Part shown: one piece after another, positions 2,037 to 32,560 of the stretch
How the letters are laid out: every line of letters begins with the position of its first letter
Numbering within the stretch: the first letter of the stretch is position 1
Assembly: GCA_011042225.1 (NCBI GenBank)
Contig: DQXT01000033.1
Location: 1 to 50,714, forward strand
Reading direction: 5' to 3'
Length of the DNA: 50,714 nucleotides
From: Deltaproteobacteria bacterium
Lineage (GTDB): Bacteria; Desulfobacterota; Dissulfuribacteria; Dissulfuribacterales; UBA3076
Notes under the pieces: generated by a model
Database searches by the model: none
Seen by the model: only the letters and a program-made list of their open reading frames with translations
Told to the model about the DNA's origin: nothing
Program-made: the position numbers and the translations under genes

Positions 2037-2426
2037 GTCCCTTGTTACTACCTCGGCAACTCCGGAGTTAAGGATCGATTCCCTTAGAGTCTTCAGCCTT
2101 TCTCTATCTCATATTAATATTAAGGTATTCAGACAACAACGTTTTCAGAGAAACAAAAAAACAAACCGGCATACATATTTACAAAACTTGGAGACAATGG
2201 ATTCAACTGCTCCCAGAACACCCCCGGAATAACATCTTAGTGAAATCTAAAAAACTCTTTTAATCAACGCCCGAATAACTCTCCATTCTTAGTGAAAATC
2301 TGATTAAGAAGAAATTGAGACATGTTCAAGGCTATACAAAAATAACGAAGTCTGCCAAGACCCCTTTGGGGATTGACAAATTCACCTATAGAGAGCAGAA
2401 TCATCGTGGTTATAGGTAATCTGGAC

Positions 2427-9223: not shown

Positions 9224-10021
9224 ATGCTTGAGGGCCTTATTCAATACATACCTATAATCCGCTGGCTGGATGTAGTTGACATCCTGGTGGTCTCCTACAT
9301 CATATACCGTGTCATCCTTCTTATCAGGGGAACCCGTGCTGTACAGATGGCAGCGGGGCTGGCTTTAATTATATTAATCTATTTCGCAGCTGGTGAGCTG
9401 AAACTCTTCACTCTTCACTGGCTCTTGGAAATTATCCTTAGCTCTTTATTTCTGCTCATCATAATAGTATTTCAAGATGATATACGCAGGGCGCTGGCCC
9501 AGATGGGTCAGACCCCTTTCCCCAAACTTCGAGTAAAGACCTTCCAGGTCTTGGAGGAAATTGCAAAGGCGGCCACCAGTTTAATAGAAAGCCAAACAGG
9601 TGCATTGATAGTACTTGAAAGGGATGTAGGTTTAAAGGATTACCTTGAGTCAGGAGTAACCATTGACGGGCGAGTAAGTCGTGCCTTGCTCTGTACGATA
9701 TTTGACAAGAGAACTCCATTACATGACGGTGCGGTAATTATTCAAAAGGGTAGACTTTCAGTAGCGGGATGTATGCTGCCTTTGAGCACAAATCCAAATA
9801 TCAGTAGACGTCTTGGTACCAGACATCGGGCAGCTATAGGTATAACAGAGCAGACCGATGCTGTAGTAGTGGTGGTTTCAGAGGAAACCGGCAGTCTTTC
9901 CGTAGCTATTGCAGGAAAAATCACCAGAGACATAGATCTGGGCACGCTTAGGCGTATCCTGCACAATGCCTTTACAAGTGAAAAGACTGAAAAACCATGG
10001 TGGCGAAGGAGGATAATTTAG
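9224..10021 (+). CDS. cdaA: Diadenylate cyclase (c-di-AMP synthase)
   Basis: Three N-terminal TM segments, DGA motif HDGAVII and RHR motif GTRHRAAIG (DAC domain). Confidence 0.95.
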   Translation: MLEGLIQYIPIIRWLDVVDILVVSYIIYRVILLIRGTRAVQMAAGLALIILIYFAAGELKLFTLHWLLEIILSSLFLLIIIVFQDDIRRALAQMGQTPFPKLRVKTFQVLEEIAKAATSLIESQTGALIVLERDVGLKDYLESGVTIDGRVSRALLCTIFDKRTPLHDGAVIIQKGRLSVAGCMLPLSTNPNISRRLGTRHRAAIGITEQTDAVVVVVSEETGSLSVAIAGKITRDIDLGTLRRILHNAFTSEKTEKPWWRRRII

Positions 10022-10024
10022 CCT

Positions 10025-10975
10025 GTGCGCCAGCAAGTTTTTTTGCGAAAAAACTGGTTTCTCAAGTTGCTCTCATTGGGATTTGCCTTACTACTTTGGT
10101 TCTTTGTAGTTGGAGAACAAAAAGCCGAGATCAGCATTTCTGTACCCCTTGAAATAATTAATATACCCACTGATCTTGTGATATCCAACGATGTCCCTTC
10201 TAATATTGATGTTACAGTCTATGGACCCCGCAGCATGATTCGCGCCATGACTACAAAGGGCATTTTGAAAGTAATTGATCTCAAAGACGCTGAAATAGGC
10301 AAAACTACTGTTCACATATCACCTGATAGCCTTTCTCTACCCGGGGCAGTTCGAGCACTTAGAATACAGCCCAGCAATATTGAAATTGTGCTGGAGCCTC
10401 TCGTATTAAGCGACTTTCCGGTAAGGCCTGTCCTAAAAGGCACGGTTGCTAAATATCACAAGGTTTTAGATACGGACGTAGATCCTCCCAGAGTGGTTGT
10501 CTCAGGGCCGGAAAGTGTAATAAAGGCTATGAAGGAAATAAAGACATTCCCCATAGACCTTGATGGGGCTTCGGATGATTTTACCAAAGAGGTGGGTTTG
10601 GATATTCAGGGTATACATGTATCACTTGAAGAAAAGAAAAAATATATAGTCACTGTACATATAGTGCCTGTCCAGGGCACAAGGCGCATCACGCATATAC
10701 CCGTACAGATTGAAACCAACCAGTCCGATGTTTTGTGGTGGCCCAAAGTAGTAAGTGTGACTTTACGAGGGCCTATGCTGGATATCAGAGAGATCAAGCC
10801 TACTGATATATATGTTGGGATTTCTGTAATAGGGCTTGAACCTGGAACTCATTCCTTAGAGCCCGAGTGCATTGTCCCTGAAGAATTTATATTAATGGAG
10901 ATAATACCTAAAAATATCAAAGTGAATATTCCTGAAAAAAAGATTAAGGAACTGAAAGAATCCGGAGATCATTAA
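10025..10975 (+). CDS. cdaR: YbbR-domain protein, CdaR-like regulator (GTG start)
   Basis: N-terminal TM plus repeated YbbR-like domains, located between cdaA and glmM in the conserved operon order. Confidence 0.88.
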   Translation: MRQQVFLRKNWFLKLLSLGFALLLWFFVVGEQKAEISISVPLEIINIPTDLVISNDVPSNIDVTVYGPRSMIRAMTTKGILKVIDLKDAEIGKTTVHISPDSLSLPGAVRALRIQPSNIEIVLEPLVLSDFPVRPVLKGTVAKYHKVLDTDVDPPRVVVSGPESVIKAMKEIKTFPIDLDGASDDFTKEVGLDIQGIHVSLEEKKKYIVTVHIVPVQGTRRITHIPVQIETNQSDVLWWPKVVSVTLRGPMLDIREIKPTDIYVGISVIGLEPGTHSLEPECIVPEEFILMEIIPKNIKVNIPEKKIKELKESGDH

Positions 10976-12331
10976 ATGCGCAAGTTGTTTGGTACAGACG
11001 GCATTCGCGGAACAGCCAACATCCATCCTATTACTACTGATATTGCCATGAAAATCGGGCGTGCCGTGGCATATATGTTTAAAAATCGCCGCGGGAGTCA
11101 TCCCAGGATACTCATAGGAAAGGATACTCGATTGTCCTGCTATATGCTGGAAAATGCGCTTGCAGGCGGGATATGTTCAATGGGAGTGGACGTTTTACTG
11201 CTGGGCCCCATGCCTACCCCTGCCATTGCCTTTCTTACCACCAACATGAGAGCGGATGCCGGAGTAGTTATATCTGCATCCCACAATCTCTTTCAGGATA
11301 ATGGAATAAAACTCTTTTCAGGGGATGGATTTAAATTGCCCGACGAGTTGGAAAAACAAATAGAGGAATTGATGGATTCGCAAATATTAACAGAATCCCA
11401 ACCAACCGGGCAAGATGTAGGCAAGGCGGTCCGCATCGAGGATGCCCCCGGCAGGTACATAGTATTTGTAAAAAACACGTTTCCCAAGGATCTTGCGCTG
11501 GATGGCCTCAGGATTGTCCTGGACTGTGCGAATGGGGCTACCTATAAAGTGGCTCCGGCTGTTTTTGAAGAGCTCGGGGCAAAGGTAACCAAATTGGGAG
11601 TAAGTCCAAACGGTACCAATATCAACTACAGGTGCGGAGCGGTTTATCCCGAACTCATGCAGAAGGCTGTAGTCGAGCACAAGGCTGATATTGGAATCGC
11701 ATTTGATGGGGACGGCGACCGTTTAATAGTAGTTGATGAAAAGGGTTCAGTAGTTGATGGCGATCATATTATGACAATATGTGCCTATGATATGATTGAC
11801 AAGGGAAGGCTTAACTTTAATACCGTAGTAGCAACGGTTATGAGCAACATGGGGCTAGAGATTGCTCTGGAGAACAAGGGGGGGAAACTGGTCCGAACTC
11901 AGGTTGGTGACCGCTACGTAGTGGAGGCCATGAGGCAGGCAGGTTACAACTTCGGCGGAGAACAATCGGGGCACCTGGTGTTTCTGGATCATATAACTAC
12001 GGGTGATGGTATTTTGGCTTCTCTACAGCTTTTGGCTATCATGCAAAAAAAGGAAAGGGCCCTTTCAGAACTTGCCGGAACGATGGATTCCTTTCCTCAG
12101 GTACTTCATAATGTCCGCTTGCGGGAGAAAAAGGCTTTAGATGAAATTGCCGGCCTCAGGGAACTCCAAGACCAGTTAGAAAAAGATCTTAAGCACAGGG
12201 GCAGGATACTCGTCAGACCATCAGGTACTGAACCGGTTATACGCATAATGGTTGAAGGCGAAAACGAGGAACAGATACAGGCCATGGCTATGACAATGGG
12301 TAATCATGTTGAGTCGGTCTGTGGAATTTAG
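10976..12331 (+). CDS. glmM: Phosphoglucosamine mutase
   Basis: [18 protein letters not shown] phosphoserine loop, [26 protein letters not shown]. Confidence 0.97.
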
Positions 12332-13518
12332 TCCGCCTTTCTTCTCATAAAGGCGGGGATACTATCCAATTCATCGGTGTTTAGTTTATCAAGGCCGTCA
12401 AAGTCTAATACTGGTTTCTTCGAATTTTTTATGTGGTCGGTTATCCTAATAGGGTCCTTTTTGATACAGATTGACGGATCATGATCCGGTTTCATAGCCT
12501 TACTATTTTTCTTAATAGATTCTATTGGGGTAACAATATGCTTTCCAAAGGAAAGGGCGTCAGATCCTATACCGGTGGCTATTACCGTTACCCTTATCTC
12601 TTCATCTATATTGTCATCAAACACAGTTCCTAAAATTATATTAGCGTCTTCATGCGCCTCGTCGTAAATCAAAGAGGATGCCTGTTCTACCTCCTCCATG
12701 CTCAGAGTAGAACTGCTGGCAGTAATATTCAGCAGGATGCCCTTGGCACCGTTTATGGATATGTCTTCCAGCAAGGGATTGGATATGGCCATCTGTATTG
12801 CCTCCAAGGCCCTGCGTGATCCTTTGGCAACACCCGTACCCATAAGGGCCATCCCCATTTCAGCCGTGACTGTGCGAACATCGGCAAAATCCACATTTAT
12901 ATAACCCCTAAGGACTATGAGATCCGAAATGCCTCTTACTGCATAGTAAAGGACCTCATCTGCCTTTCGGAACATCTCTAGTATGGGAGTATTGGGTTGA
13001 GCCAGATTTCTGAGTCGGTCGTTTGGAATTGTTATTATGGTATCTACTACATCTTTCAATTCCTCTATCCCCTCTTCAGCCACACGCATTCTGCGTTTTC
13101 CTTCAAAGGAAAAAGGTTTTGTCACTACCGCCACTGTAAGGGCACCCAATTCTTTACTTATTTCAGCAATTACAGGGGCACCCCCGGTGCCGGTACCTCC
13201 ACCCATGCCGGCTGTGATAAAGACCATATCACTTCCTTCCAGCATAGTCCGGATATCATCTATGCTCTCTTCCGCGGATTCCCTGCCGATTTCAGGTTTT
13301 GCTCCTGCTCCGAGTCCCTTGGTAAGCCCTTTACCAAGCTGAATCTTTGCGCCGGCTTTGGATATTTCAAGGGCCTGAGAATCAGTGTTTGCAGCTATAA
13401 ACTCGACACCCTTGAGCTCAGAGGAAATCATGCTGTTAATAGCGTTTCCACCTCCGCCACCGACTCCTATTGCCTTTATCCTTGCAGTAAGTTTCGGTTC
13501 TATAAACTCAAAAGACAT
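12328..13518 (-). CDS. ftsZ: Cell division protein FtsZ
   Basis: [15 protein letters not shown], tubulin signature [24 protein letters not shown], and C-terminal peptide [13 protein letters not shown]. Confidence 0.98.
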
Positions 13519-13557: not shown

Positions 13558-14781
13558 CTAAATCTTAAACCATGACTTCATACGAAGGGTTACCTTGTTG
13601 AATATATTACCATCCCTTATTCGGAATTTTTTCTGGGAATGATGTTCCATGCCATAAAGCACAAGACCTACAGCAGTAGCAAACATGGGTCCGTTGACCA
13701 CATCCACCAAACCTGAAATCCTCTGTGGGAAGCCGATTCTTGTCGGCAACTGGAATACCTGATCCGCAATCTCAGCGGTTCCCGGCAGTAGGGCAGAGCC
13801 CCCGGTTATAACTATCCCCGAAGCCAATAGTTCCTTAAGTTCTGTCCGTTCTATTTCCTGGTCAATCAAGGTAAAAATCTCCTCTACCCTGGGCTCAAGT
13901 ATTTCAGACAGAATTTGCCTGGACAGAAGCCTGGGTTTACGTCCTCCCACACCGGGAACTTCTATCATCTGACCTCTGTCTGCCAGAGAATTGATACAGC
14001 TGCCGTCGCTTATCTTGATCTGTTCTGCCTCTTTACTGGGTGTCCTTAACCCGACTGCTATATCATTAGTGAGGTTGTTACCGCCAAGTCCCAGTACAGC
14101 TGTGTGTTTTATTGCACTTTCAGTAAATAGAGCAAGATCAGTGGTGCCACCACCAAAGTCCACAAGTGCAACACCCAGATCCTTTTCTTCCTGATTTAAG
14201 ACTGCTTCGGCCGAGGCAATGGGCTGAAAAACTATATCAACCACATCGAGCCCGGCCCTGTTTGCACACTTGATGAGGTTCTGGGCAGCCGTAACTGCTC
14301 CTGTCACGATATGTACCTTGGATTCCAGCCTTACACCGGTTATCCCTATAGGATCCAATATACCGCCCTGTTCATCTACGATATACTCCTGTGGCAGGAT
14401 ATGTATGACCTCTCTATCAAGGGGTATGGCTACCGCCCTTGCCGCATCTATAACTCTGTCAACGTCTTCCTGGGAGACCTCCTGGCCCTGTATGGCTATC
14501 ACCCCGTGACTGTTAAAACCCTTTATATGACTACCGGCGATGCCGATGAACACTGAGCTTATTTCACATCCGGCCATAAGTTCGGCCTCTTCAATAGCCC
14601 TTTTTATGGAATCGACCGTATTATCTATATTGACGACTACTCCCTTTCGCAGACCTACAGAAGGATAAGTCCCTACACCTATAATCTCGGCACTATTCTC
14701 ATTAAACTCGCCCACTACCGCACATATTTTAGTAGTGCCGATATCGAGCCCGACAATCATGTTACCGGGTTTTTCGACCAT
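13558..14781 (-). CDS. ftsA: Cell division protein FtsA
   Basis: Actin-like ATPase motifs IVGLDIGTTKICAVVGE, DFGGGTTDLALF, GIVITGGSALLPG; C-terminal amphipathic end. Confidence 0.97.
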   Translation of the reverse strand: MVEKPGNMIVGLDIGTTKICAVVGEFNENSAEIIGVGTYPSVGLRKGVVVNIDNTVDSIKRAIEEAELMAGCEISSVFIGIAGSHIKGFNSHGVIAIQGQEVSQEDVDRVIDAARAVAIPLDREVIHILPQEYIVDEQGGILDPIGITGVRLESKVHIVTGAVTAAQNLIKCANRAGLDVVDIVFQPIASAEAVLNQEEKDLGVALVDFGGGTTDLALFTESAIKHTAVLGLGGNNLTNDIAVGLRTPSKEAEQIKISDGSCINSLADRGQMIEVPGVGGRKPRLLSRQILSEILEPRVEEIFTLIDQEIERTELKELLASGIVITGGSALLPGTAEIADQVFQLPTRIGFPQRISGLVDVVNGPMFATAVGLVLYGMEHHSQKKFRIRDGNIFNKVTLRMKSWFKI

Positions 14782-14789
14782 TTCCTCTC

Positions 14790-15650
14790 CTAATGTTTCA
14801 AACTGACCAGGGCTTTGCCGGGACCATAATCGAGTTCCACCTTAACTGCTTTTTTATATGTCCCTGAGCGATAGAGTTGATAAAGGACTTTTTCCGCTCT
14901 ACTAAATTGGACGCCGAGATTTTCATAGTCAAAGTAAAAAGGAATACTGCCATAAGATGTAACCAGTATTAAGGTGTCTTTTTCAGCTATGTCTATTTGG
15001 CTGATATTGTTAACACCCAGAGTTCTTGTGCCCTTACTAGCCATGGATATCAACTCCAGGGCCTTTTGGATTCGGTTATTGTGCGATCTTGTTAAATTGT
15101 TATCTATAATGTTTTTAGGATCAATTCCTGTAATGATTGGAAGAGAGACGGATTCTTCTATTGAAAGTCTATCAATAATTTCGCCTTGTTCATCAATCAG
15201 GTACATTTTGTCGGAGTTCAAAATGGCTACCGGAGTGTGCTCTTTGAGCGTAATCATTAGGTGATCCGGCAATTTTTTTTTAACTTCAACACTATGGACC
15301 CAGGGATGCCCTTCTATGGACTTTGCAATCGATTCCAAGTCGAGAGACAGCAGATTGTCTTGGGCGGTCACATTACTCAATTGCAAAATCTCCTCTTCCG
15401 TGACACGGTCATTGCCTGTAATCAAAACCTGACAGACCCTAAAAAGCTCGGTTTGGTAAGCCCAATGTCGACACAAAAAAAAAGCGACAAAGCCAATGGA
15501 CATTACAGCTATAGCAACCAGTAATTTAGGATATATAGACCACAACACGGAAAACACCGGTTTTGTAGATTTGTCCCGCGAGATGAAGCTACATACTGAA
15601 GACCTGGATTCTAAAGACGGTCTTCTAATTTTCATGTTTCCATACCCCAA
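14790..15650 (-). CDS. ftsQ: Cell division protein FtsQ / DivIB
   Basis: Single TM followed by a POTRA domain (VCQVLITGNDRVTEEEILQLSNV...HPWVHSVEVKKKLPDHLMITLKEHTPVAI); dcw position. Confidence 0.9.
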   Translation of the reverse strand: MGYGNMKIRRPSLESRSSVCSFISRDKSTKPVFSVLWSIYPKLLVAIAVMSIGFVAFFLCRHWAYQTELFRVCQVLITGNDRVTEEEILQLSNVTAQDNLLSLDLESIAKSIEGHPWVHSVEVKKKLPDHLMITLKEHTPVAILNSDKMYLIDEQGEIIDRLSIEESVSLPIITGIDPKNIIDNNLTRSHNNRIQKALELISMASKGTRTLGVNNISQIDIAEKDTLILVTSYGSIPFYFDYENLGVQFSRAEKVLYQLYRSGTYKKAVKVELDYGPGKALVSLKH

Positions 15651-16609
15651 AAAGATACCTCCGGAACAAGTTCTACATCAGTCTCTTTTTTTACACGTTC
15701 TTTAATAATTTCCAATAAGTCCATTACCTCTACGGCGCTGGCTTTTCCACGGTTTATAATAAAATTTGCATGCCTTTTGGACACTTCAGCATCCCCAACT
15801 CTAAAACCTTTGAGTCCACATTGGTCTATGAGCTTTCCAGCTGAAACACCGGGGGGATTTTTGAAAATGCATCCCGCGCTTGGTTTTCCTAAAGGCTGGG
15901 TGGCTTTCCGCTGGCACATAGCGCTTCTCAAATGCTGCCTGATCTGATCGGCATTGCTTTTGCCGAATTTAATTCTTGCAGCCGAGATAATAGCATTGTC
16001 TTGCAGTCTGAAGGCCCTGTAATCAAAATACAATTGATCTCTATGAGACCAGCAACTACCATCAGGGCCTGTAAACTGAACAGCGTCTATCACTTCTGCC
16101 ATAAAGCACTTGTTAGTGCCGGCATTCATGAAGATGGCCCCGCCCACACTGGCCGGAATGCCGGAAAGATTTTCAAGACCGCCCAGGCTATTACGCACGG
16201 ACCAGGAAATAAGAGACCTCAGCCTGCAACCTGCCTCTACGTCTACCATTTTAAAGCGATGGCCATTAGCTGATCTCTCTTCCTGTAAAAAGGAACTAGA
16301 AGAAATTTGCCGGTGGTCCTCAGATTCAAATCTGCTTTCCACAGAGCATTGAATACGCTTCAGGGCCGCCAGAGACATAACCAGCTTCACGCCTTTGTCG
16401 CTGATCAAGAGATTGCTTCCTTGACCAATCACCTTATAAGATATGGAACGGTTACTGAGATAAAAAATGGTCTTTTCAAGGGCCTTCAATGTCTTCGGAG
16501 CCAGAAACAGATGTGCAGGCCCACCTATACGAAAACTCGTCAGCGGTAAAAGCGGTACACCTTCAAAGACTTGGAGATCTTCTATCTTTCTTAGATCCTT
16601 AGAGAGCAA
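15632..16609 (-). CDS. murB: UDP-N-acetylenolpyruvoylglucosamine reductase
   Basis: TSFRIGGPAHLF, GQGSNLLISDKG, GIPASVGGAIFMNAG, SAGCIFKNPPGVSAGKLIDQCGLKG. Confidence 0.95.
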   Translation of the reverse strand: MLSKDLRKIEDLQVFEGVPLLPLTSFRIGGPAHLFLAPKTLKALEKTIFYLSNRSISYKVIGQGSNLLISDKGVKLVMSLAALKRIQCSVESRFESEDHRQISSSSFLQEERSANGHRFKMVDVEAGCRLRSLISWSVRNSLGGLENLSGIPASVGGAIFMNAGTNKCFMAEVIDAVQFTGPDGSCWSHRDQLYFDYRAFRLQDNAIISAARIKFGKSNADQIRQHLRSAMCQRKATQPLGKPSAGCIFKNPPGVSAGKLIDQCGLKGFRVGDAEVSKRHANFIINRGKASAVEVMDLLEIIKERVKKETDVELVPEVSFWGMET

Positions 16610-17993
16610 TTGCTGACTCCTTTGTCTTAAGCATGCCCAAAATTCTCGGCCCCATATGCCCTATGGTACCAGCCCCAAGAGTCATGACCACGTCACCCTC
16701 CTGCAGGCTCGGCAAAATTGCCTGAGGAAGATCCCCGCATGACTCTATATAGTGTACTGTTCCACCACGTTGATTCATGATATTTCTTGCCAAACGTTTT
16801 CCGCTAACCCCTACTATGGGAGTCTCGCTCGCTGGATATATTTCCGTCAGCCACAGTTCATCAGCTTCTCCAAAGGCAGTGGTGAAATCGTCCATCAATG
16901 CCTGAGTTCTAGTATACCGATGGGGTTCGAAAAGAACCACGAGTCGGCGCTCAGGCCAACATGCCCTGGCGGCTTTGAGAGTGGCCACTATCTCAGTAGG
17001 GTGATGCGCATAGTCATCTACTACAATTATCCTTTCTGTTTCGCCCAATATCTCAAATCGCCTGCCTACACCTTCATATGACATAAGACCGGTCTGGATT
17101 TTGTGAAAGGGTATCTCAAGTTCAAGACCCAGGGCCATTGCGGCCAGAGAATTCCTTACATGGTGCAATCCAGGGACCTTGAGTTGTATCTCGCCAAGTT
17201 CGGAATTCTGCCACCAGGCATTGAAGGATACCCCCGGACCTTTGAAACTGATATCCCTGGCCTGTAGATCACATTCAGGTCCTGTACCATAAGTCATTGT
17301 TCGTTTTTTTACTACCGAGAGCATTTCTCTGAGGTGAGGGTTGTCTCCACAAAGTATGGCAAGACCATAGAAAGGTATTTTGTCTATGAAGTCCTGAAAA
17401 CAGCGTATTATTGCATCCAAATTGGAATAATAATCCAAGTGCTCCCTATCTATATTCGTTACCACGACTATGCTTGGTGTAAGGCGCAAAAAGCTGCCGT
17501 CACTTTCATCGGCTTCTGCTATAAGAAATTCGCCCTGTCCCCAATAGGCATTGCTCCCAATACCATTTACCTTCCCTCCTATGATAACCGTTGGATCAAG
17601 GCCACCGACACGAAGCACGGAAGAGATCATAGAGGTGGTGCTGGTCTTTCCATGTGCCCCGGCCACTGCTATGCCGAATTTTTTGAGCCGCATCAATTCT
17701 GCCACCATTTCAGCCCTTGGTATAACCGGAATTTGGGAAGAAAGTGCCCCCTGCACCTCAAGGTTATGTTCTCTGATGGCAGAGGAAATCACCACTACAT
17801 CGGCACCTTGAATATTTTCAGGGGCATGACCATTGTAAATTGTACCCCCCAATTTTCTTAGAGACCTGGTGATTTCAGTCTCACGCAAATCCGAACCCGT
17901 GACTTTATATCCCAGATTAAGAAGGATTTGTGCAAGGCCGCTCATGCCTATCCCGCCGATTCCTACAAAATGAATATGTTGTTTTTTATACAT
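16599..17993 (-). CDS. murC: UDP-N-acetylmuramate--L-alanine ligase
   Basis: HFVGIGGIGMSGLAQILLNLGYKVTGSD, AGAHGKTSTTSMI, DDYAHHPTEI. Confidence 0.96.
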   Translation of the reverse strand: MYKKQHIHFVGIGGIGMSGLAQILLNLGYKVTGSDLRETEITRSLRKLGGTIYNGHAPENIQGADVVVISSAIREHNLEVQGALSSQIPVIPRAEMVAELMRLKKFGIAVAGAHGKTSTTSMISSVLRVGGLDPTVIIGGKVNGIGSNAYWGQGEFLIAEADESDGSFLRLTPSIVVVTNIDREHLDYYSNLDAIIRCFQDFIDKIPFYGLAILCGDNPHLREMLSVVKKRTMTYGTGPECDLQARDISFKGPGVSFNAWWQNSELGEIQLKVPGLHHVRNSLAAMALGLELEIPFHKIQTGLMSYEGVGRRFEILGETERIIVVDDYAHHPTEIVATLKAARACWPERRLVVLFEPHRYTRTQALMDDFTTAFGEADELWLTEIYPASETPIVGVSGKRLARNIMNQRGGTVHYIESCGDLPQAILPSLQEGDVVMTLGAGTIGHMGPRILGMLKTKESAIAL

Positions 17994-19188
17994 GGCTGCG
18001 TACTTTAGAACATTTCAATGAATTGGTTTCTTTTTGAGAACATGAAAATGTATGCCCGGCCATCTTCATCAGTGTAGAGGCCATATCTGCAGCCGCCTTG
18101 GGCCTTCCGAGTTTGCGCGCATTTTCTCCCATATTGTTGAGTTTTTGAGGATCCTCCAGTAAAGACTGTATCTCTCCTGCCAGTTTTATAGCTCCGACTT
18201 CTCCTTCCAGGAAATATTTGGAAGCCCCGGCTTCAGCCAGTTTTCTGGCGTTTGCATCCTGATGGCCGTCTGTTGCCCAAGGATAGGGAATAAGTATCGA
18301 AGGCTTTCCCGTAATCGCGAGTTCAGCCAAAGTACCCGCTCCTGCCCGGCAAATAACCAGATCTGCCCAGGAATAGGACTCACCAATGTCGGAAATAAAT
18401 TGGACCACTTTGGCCGGAATATTTGCATCTGCATAAAATTTCTCAACATAAGACATATCCAGCCTTCCTGTCTGGTGAATAATTCCCAAATGAAAACCAG
18501 ATTGCCACAGAACCTCTATGGCTGAACTGGCAAGCCGGTTCATGCATGTGGCACCCTGACTACCACCCAGGACCAAAATATTGTGTGATTGTGCGATCTT
18601 ATGATTTTGTGATTGGAATATGTCTTTCCGCACTGGATTTCCCGTAAAAATTACTCTGTTTCTTGGAAAATATTTGGTAGTCTCCTTAAAGCTCACAAAA
18701 ACTGTCTTTACAAATTTAGAGGCCAAACGATTTGTGAGGCCGGGTATAAGGTTCTGCTCATGAAGTGCTGCAGGTATCCGCAGTATCCGCGCTGCAAGAA
18801 GTGTGGGACCCGAGACATATCCGCCGACACCGAGCACCACATGAGGCCTGAATGATTTGAGCCACGAACAAGCCCTGATAGTGGAGAAAGGAAGTCCAGC
18901 CAGAGAACGTACAGTCCCTGAAATGCCTGAGCCCCTCAAAGGCCCCGTATTAAGGATTTTATAATCCCATTTATGTTCTAAAAGCGCATTTTTTTCCACC
19001 GGGCGGCCTGTACCTATCCACATAACATCTATAGGGCCGTATGATTCCATGGCCTCAACCACTGCCATTCCGGGAAATACATGCCCTCCCGTGCCGCCAC
19101 CAGCCACCACTAATTTGATGATTTGCCGGTTTGATGATTCGGTATTTGTTTTGTGCTTATATATTTCTCGACTCTTAGCCAAATTCAT
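17986..19188 (-). CDS. murG: UDP-GlcNAc:undecaprenyl-PP-MurNAc-pentapeptide GlcNAc transferase
   Basis: LVVAGGGTGGHVFPGMAV, VLGVGGYVSGP, EQNLIPGLTNR, LGGSQGA, ICRAGAGTLAEL. Confidence 0.95.
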   Translation of the reverse strand: MNLAKSREIYKHKTNTESSNRQIIKLVVAGGGTGGHVFPGMAVVEAMESYGPIDVMWIGTGRPVEKNALLEHKWDYKILNTGPLRGSGISGTVRSLAGLPFSTIRACSWLKSFRPHVVLGVGGYVSGPTLLAARILRIPAALHEQNLIPGLTNRLASKFVKTVFVSFKETTKYFPRNRVIFTGNPVRKDIFQSQNHKIAQSHNILVLGGSQGATCMNRLASSAIEVLWQSGFHLGIIHQTGRLDMSYVEKFYADANIPAKVVQFISDIGESYSWADLVICRAGAGTLAELAITGKPSILIPYPWATDGHQDANARKLAEAGASKYFLEGEVGAIKLAGEIQSLLEDPQKLNNMGENARKLGRPKAAADMASTLMKMAGHTFSCSQKETNSLKCSKVRSHV

Positions 19189-19242
19189 GACCTGCTCGCA
19201 GCTTTATTTTTAAATTAAAGTTCCTTTCCTGAAATAACCAAA

Positions 19243-20664
19243 TCACTCAATCAATAAATCATTCAATTCCCTGGCTGCCTCCTGAAAGGCCATGCCACGT
19301 TCTTCATAATTTTCGAACATGTCAAAGCTGGAACAGGCCGGGGAAAGAATTATTGCATCGCCGGGCTCAGCCAGGGACCTAGCTTTCTCCACGGCTTTTT
19401 TCATAACCTTTTTGCCTTCTTTTGTCCCATGTACTTTAACAACCGGCATTACCTTACCCAGAATTTTTTCAAACGCCTTGGCCTCTTCACCTATAACGAT
19501 CGCACCACGAACAACTGTCTTTTTAGCGATATCGGCCAGGGAACCATAATTTTCACCTTTGCCACGGCCGCCCAAAATAATTACTATTGGCTGTTCTATG
19601 GACTCTAGTGCACAAAGTACGGATGCAACATTAGTGGCCTTAGAATCGTCATAATAGTCGATACCCCCGTTTTGGACCACCCACTGAATTCTATGATTCG
19701 CTGCTTTGAAAATTCGAATAACAGACTTTACTGCAACAGCACCTGCACCTGCCAGACGTGAAATAAGTATGGCACAAGCCAAATTTTCAACATTATGTCG
19801 ACCCTTTAGAGACCAGCTTTCCAAATCATATCTTTCCCACGTATTATCAGACCACATTATGTCGATCTTTTTCAAAGAGGTGTCCAGCCCGGCCCCTGGA
19901 ACTCCAGGGCTCAGCATCCCAAAGTAAAGCCTTCTGGCACGTCCCCGGTCATTCCAAGTTTCTAGTTCCTTGTCATTCATGTTGCGTATGGACCAGTCAC
20001 CAGGCCCTTGAAAATCATAGATTACTGCCTTGCTGTCTCCGTAGCTTTTAATGTTCTGATAACGATCAAGATGATCCGGGGCAAGATTGAGCCATGCGGT
20101 TATATTGAACCTTGGGGGATTAAAGTTGAAATATCTGGTCCTCGGGAAATAATCCAATTGAAAACTGCTAATCTCAAGGACAGCAATAGTTTGCTCAGTA
20201 TGTCCTTCAATAAATGCCGACAAGGGTGTTCCGATGTTCCCAGCCCTTACATGAGGCACACCGGCCTTATTCAGCATCTCATCTACAAGCATCGTGGTAG
20301 TAGTTTTTCCATTTGTGCCGGTGATAGCAATAAGCGGTCCTTTCCAGACAGATGCAGCAAGGGCCATTTCTCCCAACACAGGGATGTTGTGCTTGTGTGC
20401 CGCCTCAAGGGCAGAAATTTCAGGTGAGACACCAGGGCTGACCACTATCAGGTCAGAGGAGAGGCAAGTGTCTATCTTGTGCTTTTTTGTCTCTATGCCG
20501 ACACCATTTTGGTGACACCATCTTGTGAAATCATTAGGCCATTCCTTAAGGGCATTTAAGTCACTGCATATGACTTGTGCCCCTTGAGAGACGATCCATC
20601 TGGCGGCTGCCTGCCCGGATACTCCCATGCCCAGTATTGTTACTTTTTTGCCCTTAAGCTCCAC
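19243..20664 (-). CDS. murD: UDP-N-acetylmuramoylalanine--D-glutamate ligase
   Basis: VTILGMGVSGQAAARW, AITGTNGKTTTTMLVDEML, NLAPDHLDRY, DDSKATNVASVLCAL, ILGGRGKG. Confidence 0.96.
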   Translation of the reverse strand: MELKGKKVTILGMGVSGQAAARWIVSQGAQVICSDLNALKEWPNDFTRWCHQNGVGIETKKHKIDTCLSSDLIVVSPGVSPEISALEAAHKHNIPVLGEMALAASVWKGPLIAITGTNGKTTTTMLVDEMLNKAGVPHVRAGNIGTPLSAFIEGHTEQTIAVLEISSFQLDYFPRTRYFNFNPPRFNITAWLNLAPDHLDRYQNIKSYGDSKAVIYDFQGPGDWSIRNMNDKELETWNDRGRARRLYFGMLSPGVPGAGLDTSLKKIDIMWSDNTWERYDLESWSLKGRHNVENLACAILISRLAGAGAVAVKSVIRIFKAANHRIQWVVQNGGIDYYDDSKATNVASVLCALESIEQPIVIILGGRGKGENYGSLADIAKKTVVRGAIVIGEEAKAFEKILGKVMPVVKVHGTKEGKKVMKKAVEKARSLAEPGDAIILSPACSSFDMFENYEERGMAFQEAARELNDLLIE

Positions 20665-20760: not shown

Positions 20761-21840
20761 CTATCTCAATTTGAGCGTGCTGATTGCCAACAGCCCAAGC
20801 AATATGGAAATTATCCAAAACCTTACAATGACCTTTGGTTCTTTCCATCCTTTAAGCTCAAAATGATGATGGATAGGTGCCATACGGAAGATCCTCTTGC
20901 CTCCTGTTGTTTTGAAGTAAAGGACCTGAAGAATTACGGATAATGCCTCAATAACAAAAATCCCGCCTACAATTACAAGCAGCATTTCCTGCTTTGAAAG
21001 TACGGCCACCGTCCCAAGAGCCCCTCCCAAGGAAAGGGAGCCGACATCTCCCATGAAGATCTGGGCCGGATAGGTATTATACCAGAGGAAACCCAGACCG
21101 GCGCCTACCATGGCGCCACAAAACACTGCAAGCTCTCCTGCACCAGGAACCGAAGGAATCCGAAGGTATTGTGCAAGAGTCGAATGACCCGCCAGGTAGG
21201 TAAACAGGGTGTAAACCGCTGCAGCTATTATAAAAGGGCCTGCGGCAAGTCCGTCCAGACCATCGGTCAGGTTAACCGCATTAGAGGTCCCCACAACCAC
21301 AAGCAGAGCGAAAAGACCATACATAATTCCTAGATCAGGCTGAAAATTCTTAAAAAAAGGAATACTAAGATGGGTATCCCACTTACCATGTGCGGCAATT
21401 AACCCTGCGGCTAAAAATACAAAAACTATTTGCCCGACAAGCTTCAATCTGCCCGACAGACCTTTGGCATTCTTTTTCCAGATCTTTAACAGGTCGTCTA
21501 CGAGACCTATTATACCGTAACCGACAAGGATTAAAATGCTTATCCAAACATAAAGGTTTCTTAAGTCAGCCCAGAGAAGTGTAGCGATTAGAATGGACCC
21601 TATGATTAATATGCCCCCTATACTCGGTGTTCCGGCTTTTGTATGATGTATTGTCGGCCCATCGTCCCGGATGATCTGGCCCATCTGCATTTCACACATA
21701 ATTCTTATAAACCAAGGTCCAAAAATCAATATTATTGAAAGGGCAGTCACTGCAGCGTATATTGTTCTAAATGTAATATAGCGAAAAACGTTAAATACAG
21801 GCCACATATCGTTAAGGGGATATAGCAGATGAAAAAGCAT
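20761..21840 (-). CDS. mraY: Phospho-N-acetylmuramoyl-pentapeptide transferase
   Basis: [60 protein letters not shown]. Confidence 0.97.
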
Positions 21841-21843
21841 AGC

Positions 21844-24800
21844 CTATACTGTCAACCCCCCTCTTTTACCCTCTCCCAGTTGCCTGATAAGGGCATTTAC
21901 CGCTCTCTCGAGACCTATGGCCCTTGATCCCTTTACAAGTATAGTTGCCGGAAAGGGCATACAATCAAGAGCAGCTAATTCTATCCAGGAAAGCAGATCT
22001 TCAATGTCAGGGAAAACACGTATAGCCTTTTTTGAAATACCCGCCTTTCTGGCTGTTTCAGAAACAGCATCAGCAAATTCGCCTATTAAGACCAAGAGAT
22101 CAACCCCCGTATTGGCTGAAATTCTTCCGAGTTCCTGATGAAACTCGTAGGCAGCATCTCCAAGTTCCAGCATATCTCCCAGAATCGCTATCTTTTTCCC
22201 GCCTCCGCTCCAAAAATCCAGAGTCTCAAGAGCCGATCGCATAGAGCAGGGGTTTGCATTATAAGAATCATCGATCAGCATCCATTTAGGTCCAAGATTT
22301 CTCAAAAAAAGGCGCCCCGGGAGCGGCCTTGCTTCCTCCAGCCCCTGTTTGATCAAAGCCGGCGTCACCCCTACTGCATGACCTGCAGCTGCAGATGCAA
22401 CGGCATTTTGTACATTCGCCTTCCCTATAAGGTGAAGATCAACATAAAGTCTGTTTCCGGCAATATCCAGATCCAGCAAAGTGCCATGTTCGCTTAATGT
22501 CCATGACAGGCAGGTAATTTTATCATTTGAAGATTTTAAAATTTGGTGATCTGGAAACGAATCCGCCTTTTGTCCCATTGAATAGCCCACGACCTGACAT
22601 TTTAGGTCTTTGGCCCCCTCCATCACCATAGGATCATCAAGGTTAACCACTGCTACACCCGTCTGGGAAATGGCTCGCCACAGCTCCCACTTTTCTTGGG
22701 CTACTGCCTTTAAGTCCCCCAGACCGACAAGATGGGCAGGTTGAATTGTAGTAATAAGGGCTACTTGCGGCTGGGCAATTTCACAGAGTCGTGATATTTC
22801 TCCCGGTTGGTTGGTTCCCATTTCCAGCACTGCCCAAGAATCGTTGGATCCGGCGGAAAGCAGGCTAAGCGGCAGGCCGATAAGGTTATTAAAATTGCCA
22901 CTGGTTTTAGCGACTTTCCATTTTTTTTTCAGGATCGAGAAAATCAGTTCTTTTGTGGTTGTCTTGCCGCAACTACCCGTAATGCCGATTACTTTGATTC
23001 CAAGATGGTTTTTATACCATGCTGCGAAATCTCCTAAGGCCTTTAATACATCCTGGACTTGCAATAAAACGGGACGACAAGATCGAGGGTCTAAATTCAA
23101 GTTTCGGAAGTCAAAGCTAGAACTAATTACTGCACTAGTACATCCTTGTCCTACAGCATCAAGGATAAAATCGTGCCCATTGAAACGGTCCCCGGAAAGT
23201 GCCCAAAAAATATTTGCCTTTCTTACTGATCTGGAATCTGTCGATATGCCCTGGATTAATGTATTAGGGTCACCTGAAAGAACTCTGGCTCCAATAGCCG
23301 TTGCCACCTGAGAAGCCTTTAATCGAAATCCATAATCCTCAAAATTCTCAAGCGTTGACCTTCCAGCTTCTATCTTTGATTCAAAGGCCTTTGTCAATAT
23401 TTCTCTGTCGTCAAAGACAAGTCGTTCCCTGCCGATTATTTGGTAGGTTTCGTGGCCCTTCCCAGCCACGAGAAGACAAACACCGGGCTGCGCCCTTTCT
23501 ACTGCCCATGAAATAGCTGCTTCTCTATCTGGAATTATTTTCACTTCAGCTTTGGTTGCAGGGTGACAGGGAGGGAGATCTCGGAGACCGTTCAACATCT
23601 GATCGATTATTGCAAGGGGATCTTCAGTACGAGGATTATCCGAAGTCAACACAACAATATCTGCCAGTGAAGCAGCTGCCCGGGCCATTAGAGGACGCTT
23701 GCCTCTGTCTCTGTCTCCTCCGCAGCCGATAACACAGATCAGAAGCTTATTAGGCCCTAACCCGATAAGGCTGCTAAGAACACTTTCCAGAGCGTCAGGG
23801 GTGTGTGCGTAATCTACAAAAGCGGTGACTCCATTGTGAGAATATACAGGATCCAGTCTTCCCGGAATACGTATTATTGATTTTATGCCGGCCTGAATAT
23901 GGTCCGGCTCTATCCCGAGACTGATTGAAACCGCTACTGTTGCAAGGATATTGTATAGGTTGTGCAAACCCATAAGCTTGGATTTGATGGAAATAGGGCC
24001 TTTGGGCGTAGATATATCACATATTATTCCTTCACTATCAATAAATTGAAACTCCGGTTTTACCTCTGCTTCAGGGCTGAGGCCATAACTGATCTTTTTC
24101 TCTTTTACTATCTCCCACAGACGCCTTCCATATAAGTCATCAATGTTAATAATTGCCGCATCAGAGGGATATTTCAAAAATAATTTTACTTTCGCCTGAA
24201 AGTATTGTTCCATGTCTTGGTGATAATCCAGGTGATCGCGACCTAGGTTGGTAAAAATAGATGCTGCGAAACTACATCCTGAGATCCTCTGCTGGTCAAG
24301 GGCATGGGAAGACACCTCTAAGGCCACTGCCTTTGCGCCTCTTTTCAACATGTTGGCCAGGGTCTCCTGAAGTTTTACGGCATCAGGGGTAGTAAGTTCA
24401 GAAGGCACCTCTATGCCGCAATGTCTTTGGCTTATCGAGCCTATTACACCGGGATTCAGCCCGGCTTTGCTGAAAATGCCTTCCAGGAGGTATGAAATCG
24501 TAGTCTTACCATTAGTGCCTGTAATAGCTATAAGAGACATTTTTTCACTTGGATTTCCATAAAAAGCACTTGCCAAAAGACCTATGGAAAGCCTGGGATC
24601 GTCCACTCCTATAACAGGCAAGGCCATGGGAACGTTTTTGACGTAATGATGCAGATCTTGCCTAGACATCAACACGGCGGAGGCACCTTTCACCACGGCA
24701 TCATTGATAAATTGTCTTCCGTCAAATTCAGTGCCTGGAATTGCAACAAACATGTATTCCCGTTTTACCTGTCTGGAGTCTGCTGTTATACCCCTGATTT

Positions 24801-24897
24801 TTACGTCGTACTTCTCAAATGATATAAAAACAGCGGGCTTCAACACTTCCAACATATCCCGCAAGGTCCTTTCGTTTTGCGTATTACCAAACATCAC
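21844..24897 (-). CDS. murE/murF: Fused MurE-MurF: UDP-MurNAc-tripeptide synthetase (meso-DAP type) plus D-Ala-D-Ala-adding ligase, 1017 aa
   Basis: N-terminal half has ITGTNGKTTISYLLEG and the DNPRTEDP motif of DAP-adding MurE. C-terminal half has GITGSCGKTTTKELI, EMGTNQPGEISRL and DDSYNANPCSMRSAL of MurF. One uninterrupted frame; junction near 23350. Confidence 0.94.
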   Translation of the reverse strand: MMFGNTQNERTLRDMLEVLKPAVFISFEKYDVKIRGITADSRQVKREYMFVAIPGTEFDGRQFINDAVVKGASAVLMSRQDLHHYVKNVPMALPVIGVDDPRLSIGLLASAFYGNPSEKMSLIAITGTNGKTTISYLLEGIFSKAGLNPGVIGSISQRHCGIEVPSELTTPDAVKLQETLANMLKRGAKAVALEVSSHALDQQRISGCSFAASIFTNLGRDHLDYHQDMEQYFQAKVKLFLKYPSDAAIINIDDLYGRRLWEIVKEKKISYGLSPEAEVKPEFQFIDSEGIICDISTPKGPISIKSKLMGLHNLYNILATVAVSISLGIEPDHIQAGIKSIIRIPGRLDPVYSHNGVTAFVDYAHTPDALESVLSSLIGLGPNKLLICVIGCGGDRDRGKRPLMARAAASLADIVVLTSDNPRTEDPLAIIDQMLNGLRDLPPCHPATKAEVKIIPDREAAISWAVERAQPGVCLLVAGKGHETYQIIGRERLVFDDREILTKAFESKIEAGRSTLENFEDYGFRLKASQVATAIGARVLSGDPNTLIQGISTDSRSVRKANIFWALSGDRFNGHDFILDAVGQGCTSAVISSSFDFRNLNLDPRSCRPVLLQVQDVLKALGDFAAWYKNHLGIKVIGITGSCGKTTTKELIFSILKKKWKVAKTSGNFNNLIGLPLSLLSAGSNDSWAVLEMGTNQPGEISRLCEIAQPQVALITTIQPAHLVGLGDLKAVAQEKWELWRAISQTGVAVVNLDDPMVMEGAKDLKCQVVGYSMGQKADSFPDHQILKSSNDKITCLSWTLSEHGTLLDLDIAGNRLYVDLHLIGKANVQNAVASAAAGHAVGVTPALIKQGLEEARPLPGRLFLRNLGPKWMLIDDSYNANPCSMRSALETLDFWSGGGKKIAILGDMLELGDAAYEFHQELGRISANTGVDLLVLIGEFADAVSETARKAGISKKAIRVFPDIEDLLSWIELAALDCMPFPATILVKGSRAIGLERAVNALIRQLGEGKRGGLTV

Positions 24898-26651
24898 TCG
24901 CAGGTTATACTGCAGGTCTTCACACCATTAAGAGGTATTCCTGATTCTGGTTTCTGCGCGATCACGGTCCCTACACCTTTGAGCTCTGTATAAATGCCCA
25001 TGGATTGCAAAATGTCCAGGGCCTGTCTTACGGATTTTCCCTTAAGATTCGGCATAGTGGAAAACTGTCTTTCTGCCTCTTCGGTTTTCACCGTTCGCCA
25101 TTCGTCTTTCAAGGGTATCTGCACCGCCTGTTTTGCTACTACCAGTGAACGCCCTAAAGTGCCCCGACGCTCACGAGGGTCGATTTTTACGCCGTCGAGC
25201 AAAACAATATAACTTACTTTGGGTGATCTTTCGGGCCAGAATCCTAGGGCAGTAACCTGTGCTGGAAATTGATTAGAAATTTGGTCAGACTGTTCATTCC
25301 ACCTGATACTCGCAAGAGACGGCCCTCCTCTGACCGCGAGCTTTCTCAGCGATTTGTGTATCAGTTCTTCTGTCAACCAGGAAATTGGGGCATGCTTTTG
25401 GTCATTCGCGGAAGAGCCCGGTATCAAAAATTCATCAGTGCTTTGTAGGGCCACGTGCGGTGTAACTAATATATTTTTATTTATCAGGGCAGAGAAGGCC
25501 CTGAGAATCTGGATAGGACTGGCGGTAACGGCCTGCCGCAAGAGGCTATTACGTAACCCTGCCGGGGCTGATGGGAGGCTGCCCCGGCCTTCACCCGGAA
25601 GGTCGATACCTGTAAATTGACCAAATCCCAGACCCCAGAGATCTCTTGAAATGTCATTATAAGGGACAATATCCTTTAACTCCTTTTCAGTCCAGGGACT
25701 CCATAATACCATACCCTTATCCAAAACCTCCCATTGGCACTGGTGGGCGGTTTTCCCCAAAGGCAAAATCTCTGACTTTTGAAGTTCACTTTGTTCAAAC
25801 ATCCAGTTTAAAAGGGGCACAAGTATCATCAGGTCAACATTATCTTGGAGAGAATAGTTTATGATATTCCTCTCAGATATTTCCCAAAAACGTTCAGGAT
25901 CCCAGGAAGGCTTGCTGGCAAGGGCAAGAATCTCACCATTTTCAACACCCATTATAACAAAACAGCCTTTCTCTGCCTTAAGTCTTTTGATCTGCCTGTC
26001 AAGCTCTTTTTCTGCTGATGACTGAATATCTTTACTAAGTGCAAGCGTAAGATCCTGTCTACCTGGGTAAATTTGTGACCCTTTAGTTTGCCTTAAAAGG
26101 CTATCATATGTGTATTCAATTCCCTCAAGACCTCTGCCGCCTTGGTCGACAAATCCCAAAACCGGAGAAGCCAGTGAATTACAAGGATATACCCTTTTAT
26201 ATTGTTCCAGTATTTCTAAGCCTCTAACCTGCATGTCTTTGAGCTTCCGGCCTTGTTCTTCGGAAATACAGTCTTTTAGACATATAAGGTCCTGCTCATC
26301 TGCAAGCATATCTTTCAAAGTTGGCAAATCAAGGTCAAGAATTTCTGACACCTCTGCCAGCCAATCATCAACTTGCCGCAAACGGGAAGGCCGCGCCAAG
26401 ATAGAGATTTTTTTTTGGTTTGCAACAAATATTGCTCCTGTCCTGTCAAGGATCATGCCTCTATCTAAGGGACTTTGCTGGGAATAGTAGCCGGTGTTTT
26501 GTTGTTGACAAAGCATGGACGAATCAATGTCATCTTCGCTATTGACAGCGTTGCCTTGCCAAAGACAACCAACAAACGCTGCGGCAATAACAGCAAGACT
26601 CAATAAGCTGAAAAGAAAAGAAATTTTCTTTTTTTTATAAGGAAAAATCAT
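24894..26651 (-). CDS. FtsI/PBP-like protein with PBP dimerization domain, degenerate transpeptidase domain and C-terminal PASTA domain
   Basis: RGMILDRTGAIFVANQKKISILARPS and GRGLEGIEYTYDSLLR (PBP dimerization domain), GVENGEILALASKPSWDP, WGLGFGQFTGIDLPGEGRG, C-terminal PASTA (MPNLKGKSVRQALDILQSMGI). No SxxK, SxN or KTG at the expected places. Confidence 0.85.
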   Translation of the reverse strand: MIFPYKKKKISFLFSLLSLAVIAAAFVGCLWQGNAVNSEDDIDSSMLCQQQNTGYYSQQSPLDRGMILDRTGAIFVANQKKISILARPSRLRQVDDWLAEVSEILDLDLPTLKDMLADEQDLICLKDCISEEQGRKLKDMQVRGLEILEQYKRVYPCNSLASPVLGFVDQGGRGLEGIEYTYDSLLRQTKGSQIYPGRQDLTLALSKDIQSSAEKELDRQIKRLKAEKGCFVIMGVENGEILALASKPSWDPERFWEISERNIINYSLQDNVDLMILVPLLNWMFEQSELQKSEILPLGKTAHQCQWEVLDKGMVLWSPWTEKELKDIVPYNDISRDLWGLGFGQFTGIDLPGEGRGSLPSAPAGLRNSLLRQAVTASPIQILRAFSALINKNILVTPHVALQSTDEFLIPGSSANDQKHAPISWLTEELIHKSLRKLAVRGGPSLASIRWNEQSDQISNQFPAQVTALGFWPERSPKVSYIVLLDGVKIDPRERRGTLGRSLVVAKQAVQIPLKDEWRTVKTEEAERQFSTMPNLKGKSVRQALDILQSMGIYTELKGVGTVIAQKPESGIPLNGVKTCSITCE

Positions 26652-26662
26652 TCTGATCTCGA

Positions 26663-27025
26663 TCAGTTGAGATATATTATTTGCCGTTTAGTAGGTGGAT
26701 GAAGTCCCATTTCACCCCCCAATTTTTCCATATGGCTGCGTGCCTTGATCCGATCCAGCCGAGTGGTGAAATCCTTATATCGATTACTGAGTCGGCCTTG
26801 TTCCCTTTGAAGCAACTCTAAGTCCTTTGCTGTTTCTCTGACTTCGTGAGTAATCAAAATTCCTAGAATTAATAAAGCGCCTAAAACAATCAGCGCAATG
26901 GCCTTATTAAGGCTCATTTTGAGTATTTTTGATAACAAAAGGTGGTCACAGGCCCTGTTTTTCTGTGCCGTCGAAACATATGAGCGTCTCTGGGGTGTTC
27001 TAATTGTTGCTGATCGGAGACTCAT
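26663..27025 (-). CDS. ftsL: FtsL-like septum protein (ORF extends to 27040; ATG at 27025 preferred)
   Basis: Small protein with one TM (AIALIVLGALLILGILITHEV) followed by a coiled-coil-like segment, between rsmH and ftsI. Confidence 0.75.
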   Translation of the reverse strand: MSLRSATIRTPQRRSYVSTAQKNRACDHLLLSKILKMSLNKAIALIVLGALLILGILITHEVRETAKDLELLQREQGRLSNRYKDFTTRLDRIKARSHMEKLGGEMGLHPPTKRQIIYLN

Positions 27026-27204
27026 TTTCTCCCCTCCCAAAACAGGTTTTTGTCAAAAGGCTCAAGGGCACTTTTATGTTTCTGTCGGGAAAATAGCAAT
27101 CTGAGGTATTGCTTCAGATTTTCACCTGCTGCAAGACAAGCCGAACATTTCTTATTTCCGAGAAATTTTGAGACTTGTATCTTAGACTTTTTGAGTGAAG
27201 TCAT
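27022..27204 (-). CDS. Small 60-aa ORF of unknown function between rsmH and ftsL
   Basis: MTSLKKSKIQVSKFLGNKKCSACLAAGENLKQYLRLLFSRQKHKSALEPFDKNLFWEGRK. Its TGA overlaps the proposed ftsL ATG (ATGA), and the GGGAGGGGAG SD for ftsL lies inside its 3' end. Confidence 0.45.
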   Translation of the reverse strand: MTSLKKSKIQVSKFLGNKKCSACLAAGENLKQYLRLLFSRQKHKSALEPFDKNLFWEGRK

Positions 27205-27230: not shown

Positions 27231-28133
27231 TTATAGTAATTGGGTCAGAGCAGTATTCTGCCCTCTATATTGAGCAACTCTTAGCTTGGCACTTCTAGCC
27301 CGGGGATTACTATTTATTTCTTCAAGGCTTGGCACCAAAGGTTTTTTAGTTAAGGGCTTCAATCTCTTGTCTTCTCTGAAAGCGATTTTGACCAGACGGT
27401 CCTCCATAGAATGAAAGGAGATAACACACATTCGTCCTCCGGGTCTCAGACAAGATGGGAATGAGTCAAGGGCCTCTTTAAGATTGTCCAGTTCTCGGTT
27501 CAATGCGATTCGAAGTGCCTGGAAGGTGCGTGTAGCGGGATGAATTCGGCGTGGATGATATTTTCTCGGAATGGAATCGGCAATCACTTCCGCCAGGTCT
27601 CTCGAACTCAGAATAACTTCTGCCTTGCGCCTTTCATATATGCGTTTGGCGATCCTTTTTGCCCATCTTTCTTCCCCATATGTATGGATAAGCTCGGTCA
27701 ATCTTTCAACCGAAAGCTTATTGACTATGTCGGCAGCAGTCACTGCACCAGATTGATCCATGCGCATGTCAAGAGGTTCGTCCCTGGAAAAGCTGAAGCC
27801 TCTCCCGCTGTTTTCCAAATGGAAGCTGGAAATGCCGAGATCCATAAGTATGCCATCAACTTGCTCTATTCTGTTGGATAAAAGAACATCACGAAGATGA
27901 ATGAAGTTGCTGTAAACTAATCGAACCCTGCTGCCAAATGCGGCCAATCTGGATCCGGCCTTTTTCATGGCTTCTGTATCATAATCAAGGGCCAGCACCA
28001 TTTTGACTTCGGGGCACCTTGACAGTATGGCCTCTGTATGGCCTCCCAGACCAAGTGTTGCATCCACATAGATACCCCCTGACCTCAATGACAGGCCATC
28101 CAGAACTTCGGAGAGCATTACAGGGACATGCAT
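27231..28133 (-). CDS. rsmH: 16S rRNA (cytosine(1402)-N(4))-methyltransferase (start MHVPVMLSEV; ORF track extends to 28193)
   Basis: MHVPVMLSEVLDGL, DATLGLGGHTEAIL, ILMDLGISSFHLE, HPATRTFQALRIALNREL, VISFHSMEDRLVK. Confidence 0.96.
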   Translation of the reverse strand: MHVPVMLSEVLDGLSLRSGGIYVDATLGLGGHTEAILSRCPEVKMVLALDYDTEAMKKAGSRLAAFGSRVRLVYSNFIHLRDVLLSNRIEQVDGILMDLGISSFHLENSGRGFSFSRDEPLDMRMDQSGAVTAADIVNKLSVERLTELIHTYGEERWAKRIAKRIYERRKAEVILSSRDLAEVIADSIPRKYHPRRIHPATRTFQALRIALNRELDNLKEALDSFPSCLRPGGRMCVISFHSMEDRLVKIAFREDKRLKPLTKKPLVPSLEEINSNPRARSAKLRVAQYRGQNTALTQLL

Positions 28134-28143
28134 GGCCTCTTTT

Positions 28144-28593
28144 CTAACCGCTAATTCCGAATTTGGCGGTGATATCGCTGCTGTACTGATCAAAGTTACT
28201 CCTAGTCTTCTGCAATTCTTTGTTCAAGCTGTCCCGGTTTGATATTTCAAAATAGGTAAGCATACCCGAAAGAACCACATCCCTGGTCAATACCGCCTCT
28301 TCACGAAGCCTCTGGGGTATCAATATTCTCCCCTGAGCATCCAGTGAACATTCCGCTGCAGCTCCCAACAGGTATCTTTTAAAGGCTATGACTTCAGGAG
28401 GCCCGAATTGAAACCGGCTGAAATGTTCTTCTATTTTTCTCCATTCCTCAAAAGGATAAGCTGCAAGGCAAGAGGGCAAGTTGGTAACTACCAGCCGGTC
28501 ATCATATTTTGCCTGCAAGAACTCTCTAAAACGCGCCGGAATGCTAAGACGGCCCTTGGCATCCAAAACATGGGCTGACCGTCCTCTAAACAT
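28144..28593 (-). CDS. mraZ: Transcriptional regulator MraZ
   Basis: MFRGRSAHVLDAKGRLSIPARFRE and SLDAQGRILIPQRLREEA: duplicated SpoVT/AbrB-like halves. Confidence 0.95.
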   Translation of the reverse strand: MFRGRSAHVLDAKGRLSIPARFREFLQAKYDDRLVVTNLPSCLAAYPFEEWRKIEEHFSRFQFGPPEVIAFKRYLLGAAAECSLDAQGRILIPQRLREEAVLTRDVVLSGMLTYFEISNRDSLNKELQKTRSNFDQYSSDITAKFGISG

Positions 28594-32442: not shown

Positions 32443-32560
32443 GATCTTCTTCTCCCTGTATTTGTTCTCTAAACAAGGCAAGCTCACCCTACCATCGGGC
32501 ATGAAGGTGTCAACGCCTGTTCTGATAATTTTATGCCTTGAGTGCCCGAATTCTTAGTTA

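Follow-up and report, generated by a model that had tools for sequence, protein, structure and literature searches.

The window, meaning the whole analysed stretch of 50,714 nucleotides, comes from a Deltaproteobacteria bacterium of the order Dissulfuribacterales (genome 2.05 Mb, 153 contigs, 96% complete) and carries on its minus strand a dcw cluster in the order mraZ, mraW, an ftsL-like gene, ftsI, a murE-murF fusion, mraY, murD, murG, murC, murB, ftsQ, ftsA and ftsZ (Table 1). The initial annotation had described FtsZ, FtsA, FtsQ, FtsL and the precursor pathway as retained, and ftsZ, ftsA, ftsQ, the mur genes and a weakly matching ftsL-like gene are indeed present; the positions of murD and murG and their 54-bp spacing were also as it gave them, and nothing lies between the two genes. 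Across the order, and in families f25 and f103 of our survey, this murE-murF fusion is frequent, whereas the two genes are separate in some f4 genomes, in genome G012 and in most genomes that have FtsW. Beside the cluster, cdaA (diadenylate cyclase), an ORF of 316 aa and glmM occupy 9224-12331 on the plus strand, convergent to ftsZ, and this position of cdaA suggests c-di-AMP signalling beside dcw. The window also encodes a PurD-PurE (GARS-AIRC) fusion of 622 aa (30634-32502, minus strand), a fused homocysteine S-methyltransferase and methylenetetrahydrofolate reductase (2373-4292, plus strand), and two ORFs that have no Pfam match, one of 301 aa (32654-33559) and one of 550 aa (46601-48253), both on the plus strand.

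Table 1. Genes and features of the dcw cluster in the window, and loci of the protein found in the murD-murG slot of families f35 and f63.
Feature	Position	Strand	Remarks
mraZ	28144..28593	-	
mraW (rsmH)	27231..28193	-	
ftsL-like	26663..27040	-	Weak FtsL_2 match, below cut-off, plus position
ftsI, pseudo-transpeptidase	24894..26651	-	TM segment, PBP_dimer pedestal, degenerate transpeptidase (TP) domain, PASTA; without SxxK, SxN and KTG; purifying selection
murE-murF fusion	21844..24897	-	1017 aa
mraY	20761..21840	-	
murD	19243..20664	-	Mur_ligase_M / MurD-like_N
murD-murG junction	19189..19242	-	54 bp; expected ftsW site, without ftsW, as in 33 of 33 dcw loci read in the order
murG	17986..19188	-	TIGR01133, 315.7 bits (cut-off 250.25)
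murC	16599..17993	-	
murB	15632..16609	-	No ddl between murB and ftsQ
ftsQ	14790..15650	-	POTRA
ftsA	13558..14781	-	TIGR01174
ftsZ	12328..13518	-	
Slot protein (f35, f63)	L141:7998-8807; L142:7998-8843; L147:8001-8807; L148:10287-11090; L149:7995-8969		

The reported lack of any SEDS gene in the window was borne out by a six-frame search with PF01098, which found none there or elsewhere on the window contig. Extended to the whole genome, the same search gave just one SEDS gene, located on a different contig (G000:C4:34806-35834), and this sole SEDS protein is RodA. It passes the RodA model TIGR02210 (402.6 bits, cut-off 336.7) and fails the FtsW model TIGR02614 (296.1 bits, cut-off 337.5), retains the SEDS motifs HTDF and SYGGS, and is encoded away from the dcw murG and next to mrdA, in a cluster (L006) of mreB, mreC, a 177-aa ORF at the mreD position, mrdA and rodA, such that the SEDS gene lies downstream of that for the class B PBP. 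In a tree of 97 SEDS sequences, dcw-linked and mrdA-linked proteins are split across a branch with an SH-aLRT of 100, and the RodA side holds the SEDS protein of the window genome together with the sole SEDS protein of every other ftsW-less genome placed. Because curated models, gene position and tree agree in this way, ftsW has been lost and not moved. For the FtsW-FtsI synthase, the initial annotation had proposed loss, relocation or replacement as a unit; loss stands and relocation does not. The notion of a unit holds for catalysis, since in each genome compared FtsW and the FtsI active site are either both lost or both present, and is wrong for the ftsI gene, which stays at its locus under purifying selection. 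The absence of ddl between murB and ftsQ was correctly noted but is not a loss: a Ddl homologue sits elsewhere in the genome (G000:C2:7952-8551, E=2e-59), and that part of the argument therefore falls.

The same state extends across the order. Among 46 genomes from 11 families, the present one included, exactly one SEDS gene was found in 45 and none in the remaining one, which is 89% complete; of the other phylum members in that sample, 10 of 14 have two, and an eleventh apparent case (G059) is a single frame-broken rodA appearing as two SEDS pieces. One SEDS gene only is also present on a closed chromosome of the order (2,025,450 bp) matching that of Dissulfurimicrobium hydrothermale Sh68, whose cells are short motile rods and which belongs to Dissulfuribacterales. 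Since each of the 33 dcw loci read from the order has murD adjoining murG with no ftsW, at a site where outgroup genomes carry a SEDS gene, and since every order genome, the closed one included, has at most one SEDS gene, chance or assembly error can be excluded. In a wider survey of 394 genomes of the phylum, each at least 90% complete, most have two SEDS genes and several families consistently have one. Ten of these one-SEDS families (f25, f28, f35, f39, f63, f71, f72, f81, f95 and f103) have likewise lost the dcw ftsW; f81 includes Desulfurivibrio alkaliphilus (3,097,763 bp), which is ftsW-less and has a motif-less FtsI, and among the f72 genomes is a closed one of 2,322,224 bp, probably that of Thermodesulfatator indicus. 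A further one-SEDS family, f29, differs in that its only SEDS protein is FtsW, kept together with an active FtsI. One genus of f63 (G217, G325) does possess a second SEDS gene, which in G217 forms a separate pair with a class B PBP (PPGSTFK, SxxK intact) outside dcw (L212:1786-4976), possibly a secondary acquisition.

In a tree built from eight dcw proteins themselves and no independent markers, the ftsW-less state needs two changes, one for a large group and one for f35/f63, which are nested among genomes with FtsW; a single ftsW-less clade is nevertheless compatible with the data by an AU test (p=0.31). In f35 and f63, murD and murG are separated by a gene for a conserved multi-TM protein of about 250 aa, placed where ftsW would stand and without a Pfam match. 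It was considered as a degenerate FtsW, and hhalign against FtsW or RodA profiles gave a probability of ~0.1% and Pfam gave nothing, such that homology is unproven. The ftsW-less state may have arisen more than once, as f35/f63 branches among FtsW-containing genomes and has this unrecognised membrane protein where ftsW would be. The loss of FtsW and the death of FtsI co-occur fully in the genomes compared, but this co-occurrence rests on one or two events.

The FtsI of the window, described at the outset as motif-less, does lack SxxK, SxN and KTG altogether, while PBP_dimer, Transpeptidase (a partial match) and PASTA all score above their cut-offs. When both traits were mapped over related genomes, SxxK was present in 22 of 22 FtsI proteins from genomes with a dcw ftsW, all of which keep S303, K306, S357, N359, K504, T505 and G506, and in none of the 44 from ftsW-less genomes; an aligned K-x-G triple in two of these 44 is most likely due to chance. 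The pedestal has fared differently, with R72 kept in 40, D77 in 38, P164 in 39, G182 in 38 and E187 in 39 of the 44, and mean retention over conserved columns reaches 0.64 and 0.53 for the two main blocks of the pedestal, compared with 0.17, 0.10 and 0.09 in the surroundings of the three catalytic motifs. PASTA was found in 33 of the 44. The best matches of a profile of the motif-less FtsI proteins are solved FtsI structures (best E=5e-72), and from its sequence the protein is predicted to have the class B PBP architecture of TM segment, pedestal and transpeptidase fold; an AlphaFold model from four sequences reached a pLDDT of 30, and the fold assignment rests on the profile matches. At the former SxN site the window FtsI and those of many other members of the order carry a segment of W-x-P type, for example LWSPW (W in 19 and P in 16 of 44), which may mark a new binding role.

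It could be argued that such a protein is the product of a decaying, functionless pseudogene and that division no longer uses FtsI, and the TP domain has in fact shrunk in several lineages, to 412-460 aa proteins in f4 and to about 250-335 aa in f35/f63, where some members show a weak PASTA trace. However, the ORF is open and syntenic at every locus of the order that reaches ftsI, its dN/dS of about 0.14-0.30 is close to that of ftsQ, and pedestal residues have been kept while catalytic ones were lost, so that decay is very improbable; FtsI is a retained protein minus its catalytic site. Even less credible, and refuted for the order as a whole, is a scenario in which FtsW was merely moved or hides in a gap of the assembly and another class B PBP supplies the FtsI activity. 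The fragmented and incomplete state of the assembly would allow it, and an extra PBP of 470 aa (L008:8494-9906, minus strand) with intact SIFK, SIN and KSG does exist, but no genome of the order, the closed one included, has a second SEDS gene, the dcw junction is intact and not at a contig end, the 470-aa protein has no dimerisation domain, and f4 and f10 genomes, up to 99% complete, yield only two PBPs with PF00905, namely PBP2 and a second whose size is that of a class A enzyme. PBPs of about 470 aa also occur in families f1 and f9. As a general replacement this protein (P0002) was rejected, being found mainly in these two families and absent from near-complete f4 and f10 genomes.

Because FtsW is gone and FtsI has no active site, other enzymes must build the septum. 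No dedicated replacement for FtsW-FtsI was found, and what remains is the RodA-PBP2 pair together with a single class A PBP, to which some families add the small extra PBP. In the present genome, which also encodes the 470-aa PBP, no intact class B PBP other than PBP2 (STFK, SCD, KTGT) has a dimerisation domain, and PBP1A, the one class A PBP, is intact in its GT motif and in each of its three TP motifs; an FtsB/DivIC-like protein is encoded on another contig, as it is in most genomes of the order. A single transglycosylase-domain protein was found per order genome sampled (two in G012), and all ftsW-less genomes of the phylum sample have one except a 90%-complete draft. Counts of class A PBPs do not separate the candidate synthases, as nearly all genomes with FtsW keep class A PBPs too, and no divisome-marking feature was seen on RodA, PBP2 or PBP1A, the PBP1A of this genome having no divisome-specific domain.

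Taken together, these data are best explained by a model in which the catalytic FtsW-FtsI pair has gone, FtsI persists in the divisome without a catalytic role, and the septal wall is made by PBP1A and/or RodA-PBP2, a joint reading that we consider somewhat better than an even bet. Before the order diversified, ftsW was deleted from dcw and the transpeptidase site of FtsI was lost. FtsI has been kept as a membrane-anchored protein (TM segment, pedestal, degenerate TP fold and usually PASTA), which in this model would serve as a non-catalytic subunit of the divisome, most likely as an adaptor or activator docked on FtsQLB; this function is what we infer, whereas retention and selection are observed. 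Septal glycan would then be polymerised by PBP1A, both of whose active sites are intact, and/or by RodA-PBP2. An alternate scenario, which we hold to be on the unlikely side, would have RodA-PBP2 perform both MreB-guided elongation and FtsZ-guided division, with the dead FtsI recruiting or activating RodA at mid-cell. RodA is the only SEDS protein and PBP2 its only intact class B partner with a dimerisation domain in this genome, the FtsI pedestal, normally SEDS-activating, keeps its residues, and FtsQ and an FtsB-like protein are kept; however, rodA still lies in the mre operon with no visible new features, and in Clostridioides difficile, the rod without FtsW/FtsI that has been studied, the side wall is the job of RodA-PBP2 (PMC10693644). 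By analogy with that organism we lean toward PBP1A as the septal polymerase, with the dead FtsI as its putative non-catalytic activator. At the level of genes the C. difficile-type combination is present, with no vegetative FtsW/FtsI pair and an intact class A PBP, although the analogy is imperfect because FtsQLB is dispensable there and kept here. We more tentatively suggest that a large part of the phylum may septate through FtsZ while a catalytically inactive FtsI links FtsQLB to a non-FtsW synthase (PBP1A or RodA-PBP2); the original enzyme pair would then have become a regulatory shell, maybe of more than one origin.

The FtsW-FtsI pair is generally regarded as universal among bacteria with a cell wall. 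The ftsW-less species offer natural experiments separating the catalytic from the structural role of FtsI, and Dissulfurimicrobium and Desulfurivibrio are cultured rods that keep FtsZ, FtsA and FtsQ without FtsW and with a dead FtsI. Moenomycin acts on class A PBPs but leaves SEDS proteins unaffected, and mecillinam targets PBP2; the synthase that builds a septum without FtsW is directly testable in cultured species by such chemical inhibition.

The absence of ftsW is already known from Thermodesulfobacteria and four Desulfobulbaceae, whereas both the accompanying inactivation of FtsI and the occurrence of this state in Dissulfuribacterales appear to be new in the open-access literature searched. 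The Thermodesulfobacteria dcw cluster shares the ftsW loss with the order, and in the available portion of the source this is a synteny remark, with nothing there on FtsI catalysis or genome-wide SEDS (PMC8871954). In four Desulfobulbaceae (Ca. Electrothrix and Desulfobulbus), the accessible text of another study reports ftsW to be absent from a dcw cluster otherwise largely kept, with mre-pbpA-rodA clustered, as here; that text assumes FtsI-driven septal synthesis and contains no mention of FtsI active-site loss or of Dissulfuribacterales (PMC7873302). Desulfurivibrio alkaliphilus in the present set is in the same state as these Desulfobulbaceae, with a motif-less FtsI. In Bacillus subtilis and Staphylococcus aureus, as cited in a further paper, division needs the FtsI protein and not its transpeptidase activity, the essential role there being to activate FtsW, whereas here no FtsW exists (PMC12539705). 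Among the closest known systems is also C. difficile, in which division is driven by the class A PBP1 without FtsW/FtsI while RodA-PBP2 makes the side wall (PMC10693644), and in which the class B PBP3 promotes septation without catalytic activity (PMC12539705), a parallel to the dead FtsI. In both, a walled rod dividing by FtsZ without the canonical septal pair is left with RodA-PBP2 and one class A PBP. However, C. difficile lacks FtsA and can dispense with FtsQLB, both of which are kept here in a Gram-negative lineage, and it retains the dcw SEDS and class B PBP as the sporulation enzymes SpoVE and SpoVD, whereas in the present genomes the dcw SEDS gene has been deleted and the dcw class B PBP is itself dead.
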